Positions 35,340-44,479 of a stretch of DNA of 64,000 nucleotides are shown here, in pieces. The stretch lies in the NCBI RefSeq assembly GCF_031585635.1, contig NZ_CP134196.1:930001-994000 (forward strand). The letters are read 5' to 3'. The notes below the pieces were generated by a model. It ran no database searches, was not told the origin of the DNA, and saw only the letters and a list, made by a program, of their open reading frames with translations. The number at the start of each line of letters is the position of its first letter. Positions within the stretch are counted from its first letter, which is position 1. The translations under genes and the position numbers were made by a program. The DNA is from Paraburkholderia sp. FT54 (GTDB taxonomy: Bacteria; Pseudomonadota; Gammaproteobacteria; Burkholderiales; Burkholderiaceae).

Positions 35340-35739
35340 TTGGATGCCTAACTAGTAAAAGATTGAAGATGCCTTGTGAATTAAATGAGGCTACGTCTTT
35401 GCCCGTTCATCAACATGACCCGCTTGCAATGAGAGCAGCGCGTACATGCTTATTTGGTCACCTACCGTGCAGCGTTCGTCGCTGTCTTGTAGGGGCGAAC
35501 ACATGGGATTTCCGCTTATTCCAAAAATTTTCCGCGATTGTGGTGAAAAATTTGATTCTTACATTTGCCTGAACGTCGCGGCACGGCAACGTCTGGAATT
35601 TTGTCAGGGAACGACGTTGCCAGAAAAAAGCAGTACTGCGCCAAGCCTTATCCAGTAAGGCTCCCAAACGTTTGCGCCGTTAAGTCTGAGGATTACGTTT
35701 ACTAAAGCTTTGCGTTTTGCCTTTTCGGGGGAATCAATC
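35340..35739. other. 400-bp gene-free gap ahead of the CNB-FliG gene, with a small hairpin
   Basis: No supported gene lies in this AT-richer stretch. AGCCTTA/TAAGGCT (35644-35662, loop TCCAG) forms a perfect 7-bp stem about 80 bp before the TTG start of the next gene, and it could be an operator or hairpin. A clear promoter was not found by eye. Confidence 0.4.
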
Positions 35740-36984
35740 TTGAATCACCAACGATCGCCATGGTCGCGTACAGCGGCTCCGGGCGAAGTCATCTATTCCG
35801 AAGGCTTCGCGGGCGACGCCGTCGTCTACGTCATTGCAGATGGCAAAGTCGAAATCTCCACGCAGTGCGACGAGAAGAAAGTGATTCTCGCCACGCTAGG
35901 CAAAGGCGAGTTTTTCGGCGAGGCGGCCTTGTTGCCGCCCGAACCACGGGCGCACACCGCGAAGGCACTAAGCTTCTGCCAATTGACCGTCATTGCGGCG
36001 AACGTGGTGGAGGATGAACTCGAGCGCGTCTCGCCGTTGCTCCGCCATATCGTACGCACGCTGATCCGGCGGGTGAAAAAAAAGGACGATATCCTCGCCA
36101 CTAATACGCACGCTGACTTCCTGCCGGGCGTCCTGTCGTATGCGCATGTTCTTGCCTTGATGGCGGGTGGAGAGAACGCCGACAGACCGGACGGCCGCAT
36201 GCGCCGCGGGCAAGGCGAGGAATTCTCGGTGCCTTTGCCTGATGTGATCAGGAAGTGCCATGCGATTGCCGGACATTCGCGTCCGCATGTGCTGGCCATG
36301 CTCAAACGGATGGAGAAACTCAATCTCGTCTCGCTCGAACCCGGCCGGTCCGATCGTCTGAGCAATACGTCGGCGCGCTATTCGGCGCAGGACGGCGCCA
36401 TGAGCCGGCAGCTGGTCACGTTCGATCCGGTGCGGATCACCGAGCGTGCCCAACAGGTGGCGGACCACGATCTCGATCTGTCCATCAGCAGCGAGCTGGA
36501 ACTGATCGAGCTTGACGACCTGGAAGCCTTGATCGGTGTCGAGAAGAAGGTGATTCTCAACAAGTTGTCTCACGCGGAGATCGCGGAAGACATCTTTGCG
36601 TTTCGCAAGACCAAGGTGTTGAACTATGTCGAAGAAAAGGGCATCAGCTATTTCTCGCGCCGCAATACTCGCGGTCCGGACGACCTGAAGTCGCTCGACG
36701 ATCTGGAGTTCGTCGACCAGCGAACGTTGTTCGAAGCGGTGAGTGCGTTCGACACATACGACCTCGCGAAGCTGCTTTCCGCCGTGACAGGTCAGCCGAT
36801 CGCCGAACGCCTGCTCTCGGTGATGACCGAGGCGAGAAAGAAAGAGGTCTCGTGGGTGATGCGTCGTGAGATCAACATCGATCCGCTCGAAATTGCCGAG
36901 ATCGAAGAACGCTTCCTCGAAACCGTGCGCGCGATCAAAGCTCCGACGGCCGCGGCCGCGCCGCTTTCCAATCTGGATGCCTGA
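35740..36984 (+). CDS. Cyclic-nucleotide-binding / winged-helix / FliG-like fusion protein
   Basis: About 414 residues. Residues 10-115 form a cyclic-nucleotide-binding barrel (PGEVIYSEGFAGDAVVYVIA, ADGKVEIS, GKGEFFGEAALLPPEPRAHT). Residues about 140-205 resemble a Crp-type winged helix (SVPLPDVIRKCHAIAGHSRP, HVLAMLKRMEKLNLVSLE). From about 250 to 400 come two related helical units, each opening with LDDLE: LIELDDLEALIGVEKKVILN and LKSLDDLEFVDQRTLFEAVS. The second reads like the FliG C-terminal torque domain, with IAERLLSVMTEARKKEVSW and the closing helix DPLEIAEIEERFLETVRAI. TTG at 35740 with GGGGG eight bases ahead is preferred to an earlier TTG. Followed by MotA- and MotB-like genes, it looks like a ligand-sensing rotor-like partner for their stator. 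Confidence 0.75.
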   Translation: MNHQRSPWSRTAAPGEVIYSEGFAGDAVVYVIADGKVEISTQCDEKKVILATLGKGEFFGEAALLPPEPRAHTAKALSFCQLTVIAANVVEDELERVSPLLRHIVRTLIRRVKKKDDILATNTHADFLPGVLSYAHVLALMAGGENADRPDGRMRRGQGEEFSVPLPDVIRKCHAIAGHSRPHVLAMLKRMEKLNLVSLEPGRSDRLSNTSARYSAQDGAMSRQLVTFDPVRITERAQQVADHDLDLSISSELELIELDDLEALIGVEKKVILNKLSHAEIAEDIFAFRKTKVLNYVEEKGISYFSRRNTRGPDDLKSLDDLEFVDQRTLFEAVSAFDTYDLAKLLSAVTGQPIAERLLSVMTEARKKEVSWVMRREINIDPLEIAEIEERFLETVRAIKAPTAAAAPLSNLDA

Positions 36985-37056
36985 CGCGCAACACGCAAAC
37001 GGCCGGCAGCGTCGACTTCGAGCTTCGAAAGCGCGGGCGGCCATTCGAGAGGACGT

Positions 37057-37821
37057 ATGGATCTTTTGACGCTTTTTGGCGCGGTGTTCGGCGTAACGGC
37101 GATCGTCGCTGGCTTCTCGCTCGAGGGCGGCCACTTTACTTCGCTGTTTCAACTGGAGGCATTCGTCATCGTTCTCGGCGGTACTTTCGGTGCGGTGATG
37201 ATTCAGAACACCTGGGCGAGGTTTTACGACGGCATCAAGCAACTGCGCCTGGCTTTTGTGAAGGCGCGACAGGTCGATCGCGAGAGCCTGTCCGTCCTGC
37301 TCGAGTGGGGCGATCAGGCGAAGTTGAACGGCATGCTCGTGTTCGAGTCGATCGAGGCGGGCGGCATCAATCCATTCGCCAAGCGAGGTTTGGAGTTGCT
37401 GGCAAACGGCGTATCGACAGCCGTGCTGGAAGACGCCTTGCAGCGCGAACTGGATGCCTACGAGCGCAATCACATGGCGGCCGCGCGGATCTGGCAACAG
37501 GCGGGCGGTTACGCGCCGACGTTCGGCATTCTGGGCGCGGTACTCGGTCTGATTCAGGTGACCGGCCATATGCTCGAGCCCGCGCAACTCGGGCAAGGCA
37601 TCGCGGTGGCTTTCGTCGCGACGCTATACGGTCTTGCGCTGGCAAATCTGGTCTTTTTGCCTTTGTACGGAAAGATCAGGGCGCAGGTGGACAGCGAATT
37701 GCGCTTCAAACGGTTATATCTCGACGGCTTGCTCGCGATCTCGCGCAAGGAGTCGCCTCACACCATCGAAACACGGCTCGCGGGCGACGTGAGGGAAAGA
37801 TCAGCCGAATTGCTGGGCTAG
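37057..37821 (+). CDS. MotA-like stator subunit
   Basis: A 254-residue membrane protein of the MotA/TolQ/ExbB family with four spans: FGAVFGVTAIVAGFSLEGG, LEAFVIVLGGTFGAVMIQ, then a long cytoplasmic loop, and the paired YAPTFGILGAVLGLIQVTGH and GIAVAFVATLYGLALANLVF that line the ion channel in MotA. The cytoplasmic loop is rich in charged residues (RELDAYERNHMAAARIW), as needed to push a FliG-like partner. It has no long coiled tail, unlike ZorA. It lies 72 bp behind the CNB-FliG gene and 73 bp before the MotB-like gene. Confidence 0.85.
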   Translation: MDLLTLFGAVFGVTAIVAGFSLEGGHFTSLFQLEAFVIVLGGTFGAVMIQNTWARFYDGIKQLRLAFVKARQVDRESLSVLLEWGDQAKLNGMLVFESIEAGGINPFAKRGLELLANGVSTAVLEDALQRELDAYERNHMAAARIWQQAGGYAPTFGILGAVLGLIQVTGHMLEPAQLGQGIAVAFVATLYGLALANLVFLPLYGKIRAQVDSELRFKRLYLDGLLAISRKESPHTIETRLAGDVRERSAELLG

Positions 37822-37894
37822 CGGGTTCCGGTCGTGCGGATAACAAGCGGGTCGGGACCCATCACACGTAACTTCGGACGCAGGCGTTTCGAGT

Positions 37895-38563
37895 ATGAAC
37901 ACCTCCTCGGGTAAGAAGCGCCTCACGGCGGACAAGACCGGCTATGATGCCGGCGACGAAGGCGAGGAGCAGTCCGGTCGCTGGCGGATTTCTTACGCGG
38001 ACCTCATCACCACGTTGATGGTGTTGTTCCTTGCGCTCTATGTGCTGCAGCTGGCAAAAACGAGGGAGCTTGAAATCAAGGCACTGGAGCGTCACGTGGT
38101 GACGGAGGCGACGTTCGCTACGCCAGATGCTTCGAAGATGCGGCTTCTTTCGCTGTTGGAGCCGCTCAAGGACAATCGCCAGATTACGATTTCGAACGCG
38201 GCTCACGGCGTGGAAATCGCCATCAACGCAAAAATTCTGTTCAACTCCGGCGACGCGCGTTTGTTGCCTGAATCATTCGGTGTGTTGAATCAGATTGCCG
38301 GCGTGCTGCGTGACCGATCGAAGAACAACATCCTCGTCGAAGGGCACACGGACAGTTTGCCTATCTCAACGGCGAAATACGAATCCAATTGGGAGCTGTC
38401 TTCTGCACGGGCAGGGGCGGTGGTTCGCTTCTTCGCGGACAAAGGCATCGAAGCGCACCGAATGGCCGCGATCGGCCGGGCCGACAATTTCCCCTTGATC
38501 ATCGGCGACGACGCGGCTGCGCGCGCCGCGAATCGGCGCGTGACCATTCTCGTCGAGTACTGA
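37895..38563 (+). CDS. MotB/OmpA-like stator subunit
   Basis: A 222-residue protein with a cytoplasmic head, one span (SYADLITTLMVLFLALYVL, about residues 33-51) carrying the aspartate that binds the driving ion in MotB, and a periplasmic OmpA-type peptidoglycan-binding domain from about residue 105 (LFNSGDARLLPES, ILVEGHTDSLPI, NWELSSARAGAVVRFF, GIEAHRMAAIGRAD). It should anchor the stator to the wall and carry ions with the MotA-like protein. The plug region between span and OmpA domain is short. Confidence 0.88.
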   Translation: MNTSSGKKRLTADKTGYDAGDEGEEQSGRWRISYADLITTLMVLFLALYVLQLAKTRELEIKALERHVVTEATFATPDASKMRLLSLLEPLKDNRQITISNAAHGVEIAINAKILFNSGDARLLPESFGVLNQIAGVLRDRSKNNILVEGHTDSLPISTAKYESNWELSSARAGAVVRFFADKGIEAHRMAAIGRADNFPLIIGDDAAARAANRRVTILVEY

Positions 38564-42493: not shown

Positions 42494-44167
42494 TTACCTG
42501 TTCAGCGCCAGATATTGATGCAGCGACTGGATCGCGGCCGCGCCCTCGCCGACGGCTGCCGCAACGCGCTTCACCGAGCCGCTGCGCACGTCGCCCACGG
42601 CGAAGATGCCGGGCCGGCTCGTCTCCAGATAGTGAGGAGGACGGTCCGACGACCACTGCGGAATCGCGTCGGGACCGGTGAGCACGAAACCGTGTTTGTC
42701 GAGCGCGACGCAATCGCCGAGCCAGCCGGTACTCGGCTGTGCGCCGAGAAACAGGAACACATGGCGAATCGGTTTCTCCTCGATGCGGCCTTGAGTGTCC
42801 CACTTGATCGATTCGAGTTGGGCCTCGCCATTCAATTCGACGATCTGCGTGCGCACATGAACGCTGATGTTCGCCGCCGCTTCGATGCGCCGGATCAGAT
42901 AGTTCGACATGCTCGCGCTGAGTCCGTCGCCGCGAATCGCGATATGCACGTGGCGCGCGAATCCCGACAGGAACACCGCAGCCTGCCCGGCCGAATTTCC
43001 GCCACCGACGATGACCAGTTCCTGGTTGTTGCAGAACGCGGCTTCCATGTAGGTCGCGCTGTAATAGATGCCGCTTCCTTCGAACTCTTCGAGGCGCGGC
43101 AACAACGGTTTGCGATAGCGCGCGCCCGTCGCGATGACGACCGCGCTGGCATACACGTGCTCGTCGTAATTGAGGCGCAGGTGAAAGGGCGGCGCGTTTT
43201 CACACTCGATGCCGAGCACTTCGATGGGCACGCCGACTTCCGCGCCGAACTTGCGGCACTGGGACAGTCCGCGGCCGGCCAGCGCTTGCCCCGAGATGCC
43301 GGTTGGGAATCCAAAGTAATTTTCAATCTTCGAACTGGTGCCGGCCTGGCCACCGGGCGCCTTGGTGTCGAGAACCGCGACTCTGAGTCCTTCTGAGGCC
43401 GCGTACACCGCGGCCGCGAGACCGCCCGGTCCCGCGCCGACCACGACTACGTCGAACCGTTCGCCGTTCAGCCGGTCGGGGCTCAGACCGATCGCATCGG
43501 CCACCGCCCGGTTGGTCGGCTGTTTGAGTACGTTGCCTTGCAGGGTGACGATCAGCGGTATATCGGCTTCCGTTGCGTCATAACGTTCGAGCAGTCCCTT
43601 GGCTTCCTCGTGTTCGACGATATCGAAGTAGGCGAAAGGCTGCGCATTGCGGCTAAGGAAATGCCGCAGCACGAGCGTGCTCCAGGAAGCCGAACTGCCG
43701 ATGACCAGAAGCCCGCCGTGCTGATCCTGAATGAACGCGACGCGCCGCAGGATAAAGGCGCGCATGATCGTTTCGCTCAACTCCGCTTCCGCGACGACGA
43801 GCGCCCGCAGCGATTCCTCGTCGATCACGATCACTTCGCAATCGGTAACGGCGTGTGCACTCGCTACCGCGCCGCGGCCGGCGAGCGTTCCTACCTCGCC
43901 GGTGAAGCAGCCGGGGCCGTGCGTGCCCAGAACGTGGTGCTTGTCGCCGGCGCCTCGCGTCGCCTCGATCATGCCGGAGACGACGGTAAACATGGGGATG
44001 TGCCGGTCGCCTTCGGAGAACAGGAGATCGCCCGCTTTCAGCCGGCGCCGCTCGCCGTATCGCTCGAGCACCGCAAACTGACGTTCATCGAGCGTTGGAA
44101 AAATCTGGTGGTGACGGCTCCCGCCTGCCACCAGGTCTTCACGTCTGCTTGACGACTTATTGCTCAT
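42494..44167 (-). CDS. CNB / glutaredoxin-like / thioredoxin-reductase-like fusion protein
   Basis: A 557-residue protein. Residues about 20-140 are a cyclic-nucleotide-binding domain (LKAGDLLFSEGDRHIPMFTV, GPGCFTGEVGTLAGRGAVAS). Residues about 150-235 resemble a glutaredoxin fold (GGLLVIGSSASWSTLVLRHF, ADIPLIVTLQGNVLKQPTNR) with SASW where CPxC would be. From about 240 it is a thioredoxin-reductase-type flavoprotein (DVVVVGAGPGGLAAAVYAAS, GGQAGTSSKIENYFGFPTG, ELVIVGGGNSAGQAAVFLSG, PGIFAVGDVRSGSVKRVAAA). The redox CxxC of true thioredoxin reductases is absent; that position reads YYSATYMEAAFC. It may act as a ligand-gated NAD(P)H flavoprotein. Confidence 0.82.
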   Translation of the reverse strand: MSNKSSSRREDLVAGGSRHHQIFPTLDERQFAVLERYGERRRLKAGDLLFSEGDRHIPMFTVVSGMIEATRGAGDKHHVLGTHGPGCFTGEVGTLAGRGAVASAHAVTDCEVIVIDEESLRALVVAEAELSETIMRAFILRRVAFIQDQHGGLLVIGSSASWSTLVLRHFLSRNAQPFAYFDIVEHEEAKGLLERYDATEADIPLIVTLQGNVLKQPTNRAVADAIGLSPDRLNGERFDVVVVGAGPGGLAAAVYAASEGLRVAVLDTKAPGGQAGTSSKIENYFGFPTGISGQALAGRGLSQCRKFGAEVGVPIEVLGIECENAPPFHLRLNYDEHVYASAVVIATGARYRKPLLPRLEEFEGSGIYYSATYMEAAFCNNQELVIVGGGNSAGQAAVFLSGFARHVHIAIRGDGLSASMSNYLIRRIEAAANISVHVRTQIVELNGEAQLESIKWDTQGRIEEKPIRHVFLFLGAQPSTGWLGDCVALDKHGFVLTGPDAIPQWSSDRPPHYLETSRPGIFAVGDVRSGSVKRVAAAVGEGAAAIQSLHQYLALNR

Positions 44168-44479
44168 GGGGCTTTCCGAATGGAGGCGCGCGTGGCGCGC
44201 CGTGGTGAGTTTGCCGCCGGATGCCGCGCCGGCGCGAACGGTCTGAATGACCGGAGAAGACGGCGGGCCGTCCTGTTCGCAGAGATTGTGCGCCTGAGAT
44301 CCGTTCTCGGTAAAGTGCGAAAAAAGAGGGGTGTTCCGCTTGCTTGCGGACGGCCCATTTCCATTTATATGCACTCTGCATGCTTTACTGCCGTGCCACG
44401 ACTATAACTTCATATCAATCACCGTCTTTTCATATCTGGCGAGTACATTGTCGGGAATTGGCTGTTCGGAGAGCATTAC
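44168..44479. other. Divergent control region with a TTCATATC direct repeat
   Basis: This 312-bp gap separates the CNB-reductase gene from the propeller gene. TTCATATC occurs at 44409-44416 and again exactly 20 bp later (44429-44436), two helical turns apart, 44 bp before the propeller ATG, which suggests a direct-repeat binding site. Nothing else is clear. Confidence 0.4.

Follow-up and report, generated by a model that had tools for sequence, protein, structure and literature searches.

Why would a bacterial genome set a cyclic-nucleotide-binding protein with a FliG-like tail directly before a pair of stator genes? The question is raised by three genes at positions 35,740 to 38,563 of a 64,000-nt stretch of Paraburkholderia sp. 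FT54 (NZ_CP134196.1, positions 930,001 to 994,000; hereafter the window, numbered from its first letter), which lies on contig C2 of an 8.6-Mb host genome whose nearest named relatives are Paraburkholderia. An earlier note on this DNA had read the three genes, here termed F (the fusion), A (MotA-like) and B (MotB-like), as a self-contained ion-driven machine in which a second messenger controls the rotor-like part. With a little more confidence than doubt, we instead read F-A-B as an accessory flagellar-type stator with a dedicated second-messenger-responsive FliG_C partner, a reading that draws on the homology of the F tail, the nucleotide-binding residues of F, the type of A and a promoter pattern in the relatives. 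The genes and their parts are as follows.

35740..36984, + strand: F, a cyclic-nucleotide-binding / FliG_C-like fusion of 414 residues with a TTG start (open reading frame, Pfam)
35770..36024, + strand: cyclic-nucleoside-monophosphate (cNMP)-binding barrel, F residues 11-95, with the FGE...PR cassette holding E61 and R70 (PF00027)
36220..36339, + strand: possible winged helix, F residues ~161-200 (MarR_2; putative bounds, drawn by eye)
36457..36681, + strand: middle unit of F, residues 240-314, not FliG-like, with a faint HTH_17 resemblance
36691..36936, + strand: FliG_C-like domain, F residues 318-399 (PF01706, reciprocal PDB search)
37057..37821, + strand: A, a MotA-type stator subunit (MotC-like) of 254 residues (Pfam, NF006583, tree)
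37895..38563, + strand: B, a MotB-type stator subunit of 222 residues with Asp36 and an OmpA-like peptidoglycan-binding domain

Open reading frames and Pfam bore out the three-gene set as it had been described, with F, A and B co-directional on the + strand and separated by 72 and 73 nt; the median gaps in 79 named relatives are 71 nt (F-A) and 45 nt (A-B). For comparison, the best 80 of the 105 named loci encoding a relative were kept, a set that overlaps with the genome set described below. Because the match starts at a start codon in 73 of these 80 relatives, the start of F was placed at TTG 35740 and not at an earlier TTG. Hydropathy gave no membrane helix in F, four hydrophobic regions in A and one hydrophobic stretch in B. 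The ordinary flagellar motAB of the same genome is found elsewhere, on contig C1 (its MotB identified by eye), and the flagellar fliG is at C1:156240.

In the window copy of F, residues 318-399 matched the Pfam family FliG_C (PF01706) with an E-value of 0.0047, and a match at E up to 1 was present in 55 of the 56 family members scanned, the window's included (best E 2.8e-6). All four distant F proteins, from gammaproteobacterial genomes, exceeded the curated cut-off (38.1, 38.3, 38.3 and 27.5 bits), as did nine further F copies from the window's family when whole genomes were searched (23.6-29.9 bits). A distant F used as query led to six database proteins, two of them the same distant loci, that are annotated with PF00027 as well as PF01706. 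When a profile built from the final ~170 residues was searched reciprocally against 177,635 PDB sequences, it returned six FliGs (E 9e-8 to 0.0011) and nothing else below E 0.01, the next match standing at E 0.28. Set against this, direct profile-profile comparison of the C-terminal region with FliG, distant members included, reached no more than a modest probability of 60.6 (E 8e-5). On balance we regard homology of the F family to the C-terminal unit of FliG as established, and are less sure of the alignment register in the window's own copy. The FliG match that had been predicted for this region was thus recovered by the family-wide Pfam scan, in the distant members and by the reciprocal search. 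Of the two units opening with LDDLE that had been described, the last is FliG-like and the first, residues 240-314, matched no FliG model; it also had no PDB match below E 0.27, and two of 14 members showed HTH_17 there (best E 0.02). Neither FliG_N nor FliG_M, the ring-building parts of FliG, was among the 13 Pfam families reported at E up to 1 for the 56 members. Because F has no match to either and no ring partner is encoded among the three genes, F would hardly be a ring-forming rotor.

FliG_C matches were also met outside this family. The distant genome G330 encodes a 534-residue FliG_C protein (57.9 bits; L173 3143-4747, - strand), with no flagellar gene recognised alongside by eye, and a 957-residue open frame with two FliG_C matches (L172). 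At the divergent FliG_C locus L160 the neighbouring gene is MotA; a further divergent locus, L159, was set aside, its genes, as named by eye, resembling those of an ordinary flagellar cluster.

At its other end, F matched the cNMP_binding family (PF00027) over residues 11-95 with E 2.5e-18. Within the cassette, E61 is kept in 79/79 named loci and R70 in 78/79, the remaining one having K (L066 was left out of all conserved-residue counts), and both are kept in the four distant proteins. The barrel of the original description therefore stands; the Crp-like winged helix is at most hinted at by MarR_2 matches in 8 of the 56 members (best E 0.0082), with weak Penicillinase_R matches as well. In the distant genome G213, a class III nucleotidyl cyclase gene (PF00211, E 1.3e-7) lies directly upstream of F on the same strand, at a distance of 253 nt from the longest frame of F, and a second distant genome, G329, has a cyclase ~12 kb from F on one contig. 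These neighbours point to cyclic AMP (cAMP) or cyclic GMP (cGMP) as the ligand of F, cAMP being the most likely candidate. In G329, a separate gene for a 157-residue cNMP-binding protein is located between F and A (L155 7849-8322, - strand).

The other two genes encode a stator of recognisable type. A matched MotA_ExbB (E 5.6e-26) and MotA_N (6.9e-9), in agreement with the four-span MotA-like protein claimed for it, and scored 249.3 bits against the NCBIfam flagellar stator model NF006583 (cut-off 237), which we take to be MotC. B matched OmpA (4.9e-16) and MotB_plug (5.7e-9), and its Asp36 is D in 79/79 named relatives and 3/3 distant ones, as expected of the MotB-like protein with an ion-binding aspartate and OmpA domain that had been proposed; its score against the MotD model, 176.7 bits, is far under the cut-off of 283. 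In a tree of 46 A-type proteins, the window A and 12 relatives grouped with seven short MotAs (support 95/91), five of which are encoded at most 30 kb from a flagellar fliG, and eight other MotA_ExbB proteins of the host genome, taken as ExbB/TolQ types, stood apart. A thus groups with flagellar-type (FIT of PMC12505986), MotC-like stators and not with ExbB/TolQ. The three distant A's grouped with six other short MotAs (support 96/94), and a single clade of both F-linked kinds of A was rejected (p-AU 0.0001); for the two distant A's scanned, the best NCBIfam models were MotP and PomA, under cut-off. The tree has long branches, and the window A family sits on a long branch of its own; it supports well, though not conclusively, a pairing of F with two different stator lineages. 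At the positions of PomA R88, E96 and D128, A has K in 79/79, E in 79/79 and E in 77/79 named loci (D in two), and the three distant A's keep E96 alone. An ordinary flagellar MotCD within a known regulon had been named in the earlier note as one outcome at odds with its proposal, and on this point the results count partly against that proposal: A is flagellar-type, over the NF006583 cut-off and grouped with MotAs near fliG, and a sigma-28-like pattern lies upstream in the relatives.

The three genes travel together. Among 98 genomes searched for F, 58 of them from the genus and the window's included, F (E below 1e-170) was carried by 29 of the 58 genus genomes, and A and B adjoin it in 29/29. 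The order and strand F-A-B are kept in all 80 named loci, one of which (L073) has a 1-kb gap before B and another (L066, a leaf-symbiont assembly) frameshifts in the operon. The operon was found in Paraburkholderia, Burkholderia, Trinickia and Caballeronia. Among 274 genomes of the class there were four distant F carriers, three with A and B beside F; at the fourth, L157, A and B are missing from the 3.3 kb downstream of F. Searching for such carriers with the whole protein found F in 2/398 genomes, as cNMP domains crowd the list, and the C-terminal profile found it in 5/369, namely the four distant ones and the window's own. The conserved three-gene order on which the original proposal had been staked was present in 80/80 named loci, 29/29 genus genomes and 3/4 distant genomes. 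A genome without a full F, G051, contains two 27-residue pieces that match the beginning of F at 89% identity (C72:36362-36442 and C60:74553-74633).

What surrounds the operon varies. A comparison of 10 loci with the full set of 80 showed no gene other than F, A and B that is common to more than 30 loci. Genes of the DUF4148 family do lie on both sides in the window (Pfam), as had been noted; either window copy found a tblastn match (E up to 1e-3) in only 5/80 flanks, so a part in the system is unsupported, the flanks seem incidental and they were dropped as a component. An ordinary flagellar operon was likewise rejected, since the host's FliG, MotB and three chemotaxis proteins (CheR, CheD and CheB by eye) are unmatched in the 80 loci; the CheA-like protein of the host genome had one match. 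Twelve Burkholderia loci have a chemoreceptor match 3' of the operon on the same strand; 11 of these show an open frame of 620-653 codons that starts 68-176 nt after B (none was resolved at L105), and one such frame was run through Pfam. A chemoreceptor match occurred anywhere in the flanks in 22/80 loci; chemoreceptors are common, and the Burkholderia loci represent few clades.

Upstream of F, three features were located in the window.

35665..35674, no strand assigned: palindrome CAAACGTTTG
35703..35708, + strand: TAAAGC, remnant of a sigma-28-like promoter (alignment with 11 relatives)
35656..35683, + strand: further sigma-28-like match, 12/16 consensus bases, overlapping the palindrome and possibly due to chance

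The pattern T[AC]AAG-N14/15-G[ACT]CG[AT][AT]A occurred at most 350 nt upstream of F in 80/80 named relatives, 76 of which have it between -130 and -95. Controls gave 0/81 on the opposite strand and 3 for the reversed pattern, and the remainder of the loci, 2.67 million strand-bases, contained 12 matches, a rate of 0.0016 per 350 nt. Both boxes are retained in 14/14 representatives under 80% identity, whose spacers have diverged. A relaxed form, AAG-N14/15-G[ACT]CG[AT][AT]A, precedes flagellar motA in 29/29 genomes. A stricter pattern had 25 sites in the host genome versus 13 for its reversed control, and the 10 frames downstream of such sites that were run through Pfam include one flgM, two chemoreceptors, one response regulator and two GGDEF proteins. 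In the relatives, membership of the operon in the flagellar sigma-28 regulon is the most likely interpretation of these patterns. Across 81 upstream regions of 350 nt, that of the window among them, the palindrome CAAACGTTTG is found unaltered in 30 and with no more than one mismatch in 62; it occurs once in the window versus 0.05 expected.

We propose the following working model. Their families show A and B to form an ion channel of the MotA/MotB type with a peptidoglycan anchor, presumably with 5:2 stoichiometry. F, with the residues for it in its N-terminal barrel, would bind a cyclic nucleotide, likely cAMP, and its FliG_C-like domain could present a mimic of the rotor to the cytoplasmic face of the A ring. 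Ligand binding might then switch F between freeing the stator so that the flagellar rotor can use it and keeping it disengaged, or might load the stator, so that F would serve as a clutch, a brake or a loader and the cNMP level would set the share of this stator driving the motor. Sigma-28 would transcribe the operon along with the late flagellar genes, as the pattern in the relatives suggests.

A number of observations weigh against an accessory stator with such a partner, beginning with the FliG-like domain itself. The FliG_C score of the window F, 17.6 bits, is under the curated cut-off of 23.3, and a within-clade profile made without the distant members reached only E 0.03 (probability 1.6) against FliG. 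A 13-sequence FliG model, which aligned other F relatives to the C-terminal part of FliG, put the segment of the window copy, L082 and L110 on the middle part and that of L065 on the first part. The contact residues differ as well. R281, D288 and D289 of FliG are ranked as of primary and K264 and R297 as of secondary importance for torque (PMC6079164). In the register of the reciprocal PDB alignment, R281, D288 and D289 correspond to A365, W372 and V373 of the window F; across the named loci the D288 position is W (79/79), the D289 position V, I or L (79/79), the R297 position D (76/79), the K264 position A, S, V, T or G (79/79) and the R281 position A, T or V, next to an invariant R366. The distant members keep R281 (4/4) and lose the acidic pair, save a possible D at 288 in L156, one row being gapped there. 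The charged torque residues of FliG are mostly not kept in F, and with the contact charges reworked, a FliG-like torque stroke by F is not supported by its residues; a docking mimic of FliG_C is the more careful reading than a torque-transmitting domain.

The promoter, the ligand and the distribution of F add further points on the same side. The pattern upstream of F was composed after viewing the sequences, and its exact form precedes flagellar motA in only 1/29 genomes; the relaxed form is also found on the opposite strand of the motA upstream regions in 15/29, via a conserved leader. The E. coli sigma-28 consensus is given as TAAAGTTT-n11-GCCGATAA (PMC2859248). Scored over 16 bases with spacers of 11 or 12, it was matched at 12/16 or better by 35/79 F upstream regions, compared with 17/1600 background windows, 17/1129 upstream regions of other long open frames and 1/79 opposite strands. 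The sigma-28-like pattern is absent from all four distant loci, of which L156 has a 12/16 consensus match, and, alone among the 81 upstream regions, from that of the window copy: alignment with 11 relatives places there a missing stretch of ~78 nt that holds the second box. The promoter being damaged, expression of F-A-B in this strain is uncertain. Class III cyclases, the one class searched, were absent at E 1e-6 from 9/28 F-carrying genomes of the genus and from 14/29 of those without F. Flagellar FliG is present in 57/58 genus genomes with or without F (62/63 of the genomes searched), which makes its co-occurrence with F uninformative. The sole genus genome without a FliG match, the leaf-symbiont G008 (L066 / L023), has frameshifted F and B, a single case.

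A self-contained, non-flagellar ion-driven machine with F as its moved part, gated by cNMP and serving for example envelope maintenance or defence, strikes us as unlikely. Such a machine would suit an operon that stands alone in varying genomic contexts, with the host's flagellar FliG, MotB and chemotaxis proteins unmatched around it and with no sigma-28-like pattern at the distant loci, and B matches the ZorB models of a defence library (best 69.5 bits). B nevertheless scores far higher against the MotD model, F is without the FliG_N and FliG_M parts, and neither F nor A matched ZorA, ZorC or ZorD, which led us to reject a Zorya identity; in the same library F faintly matched a TIR-effector model, through its cNMP part (E 2.7e-4), and AbiEi (E 5.3e-4). 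The flagellar type of A, apart from the eight other MotA_ExbB proteins of the genome, together with the pattern upstream of F in every named relative, makes a free-standing rotor-stator machine less likely. Similarly improbable in our view is a new ion-driven unit in which the stator is partnered with a soluble cNMP-gated FliG_C protein and not with the flagellar ring, the rotation of A being coupled to or gated by F; the tree suggests two or more separate assemblies of this unit, involving two stator lineages. The core of the original proposal, a second messenger acting on a FliG-like partner of the stator, survives in the explanation that we prefer, and its self-contained machine is not favoured.

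We are more doubtful still of a reading in which F acts chiefly as a CRP-like transcription factor for its own operon or for flagellar genes, with a tail that senses free or engaged stators. Its barrel and possible winged helix, its database names, such as 'Crp/Fnr family transcriptional regulator', and the conserved palindrome upstream would fit that role; the putative helix, however, is faint and was not kept in the distant members (alignment, by eye), and the palindrome looks more like a LacI-type operator. Among the patterns tried on the 81 upstream regions, neither CRP-type nor sigma-54 sites were found, apart from a very loose sigma-54 form, which matched in 56. Least probable among the explanations considered is an assembly factor or chaperone for the insertion of A-B, with vestigial nucleotide binding. 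The loss of most of the FliG charge pattern would be in keeping with it, whereas E61 and R70 are nearly invariant across the Burkholderiaceae and in the distant genomes, and a cyclase gene adjoins F in one of the latter.

An accessory stator with a FliG_C-bearing partner resembles several known systems in part. Like MotCD and PomAB-type accessory stators, it has an A over the NCBIfam stator cut-off that groups with short MotAs near fliG, and a B that retains the ion-binding Asp and the peptidoglycan-binding domain; unlike them, F precedes A-B in every locus compared, B is under the MotD cut-off and the family has its own long branch. With the torque domain of FliG, F shares a homologous C-terminal domain and differs in lacking FliG_N and FliG_M matches, in not keeping D288/D289 and R297, and in its fusion to a cNMP barrel. 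Zorya ZorAB is a MotA/MotB-type pair with further partners, which is the likeness here alongside the ZorB match of B; no ZorA, ZorC or ZorD is matched and A is flagellar-type. Closest in conduct may be the PilZ stator regulators: YcgR, MotI, FlgZ and MotL bind cyclic di-GMP (c-di-GMP) and act on stators or on the stator-rotor contact, and motL adjoins motAB (PMC8203827). F would likewise be a cytoplasmic second-messenger-binding protein acting on stators or their rotor contact, with a cNMP barrel and a FliG_C-like domain in place of a PilZ domain for c-di-GMP.

No description of this gene composition was found in the open-licence literature, in searches that were not all aimed at the gene set, so that, as far as they show, the conserved F-A-B unit is undescribed. 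The part covered of a survey of MotAB and its relatives mentions FliG once in the main text and has neither 'cyclic nucleotide' nor 'Burkholderia' (PMC12505986), and the covered part of a study of B. terrae BS001 counts three motAB pairs and does not report MotCD (PMC5462819). A P. hospita record in a plasmid collection carries F. We take B. terrae BS001 to be placed now in P. hospita. If the accessory-stator reading is true, F would be a cyclic-mononucleotide counterpart of the PilZ regulators built on the rotor's own domain, a second messenger would act directly on a bacterial motor unit, giving metabolism a further way to influence motor output, and F would offer a natural FliG mimic with which to dissect the stator-rotor contact.

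A second cNMP-binding fusion lies in the window ~4 kb past B (42494-44374, - strand), where the cNMP barrel is joined to a pyridine-nucleotide-disulphide oxidoreductase domain.

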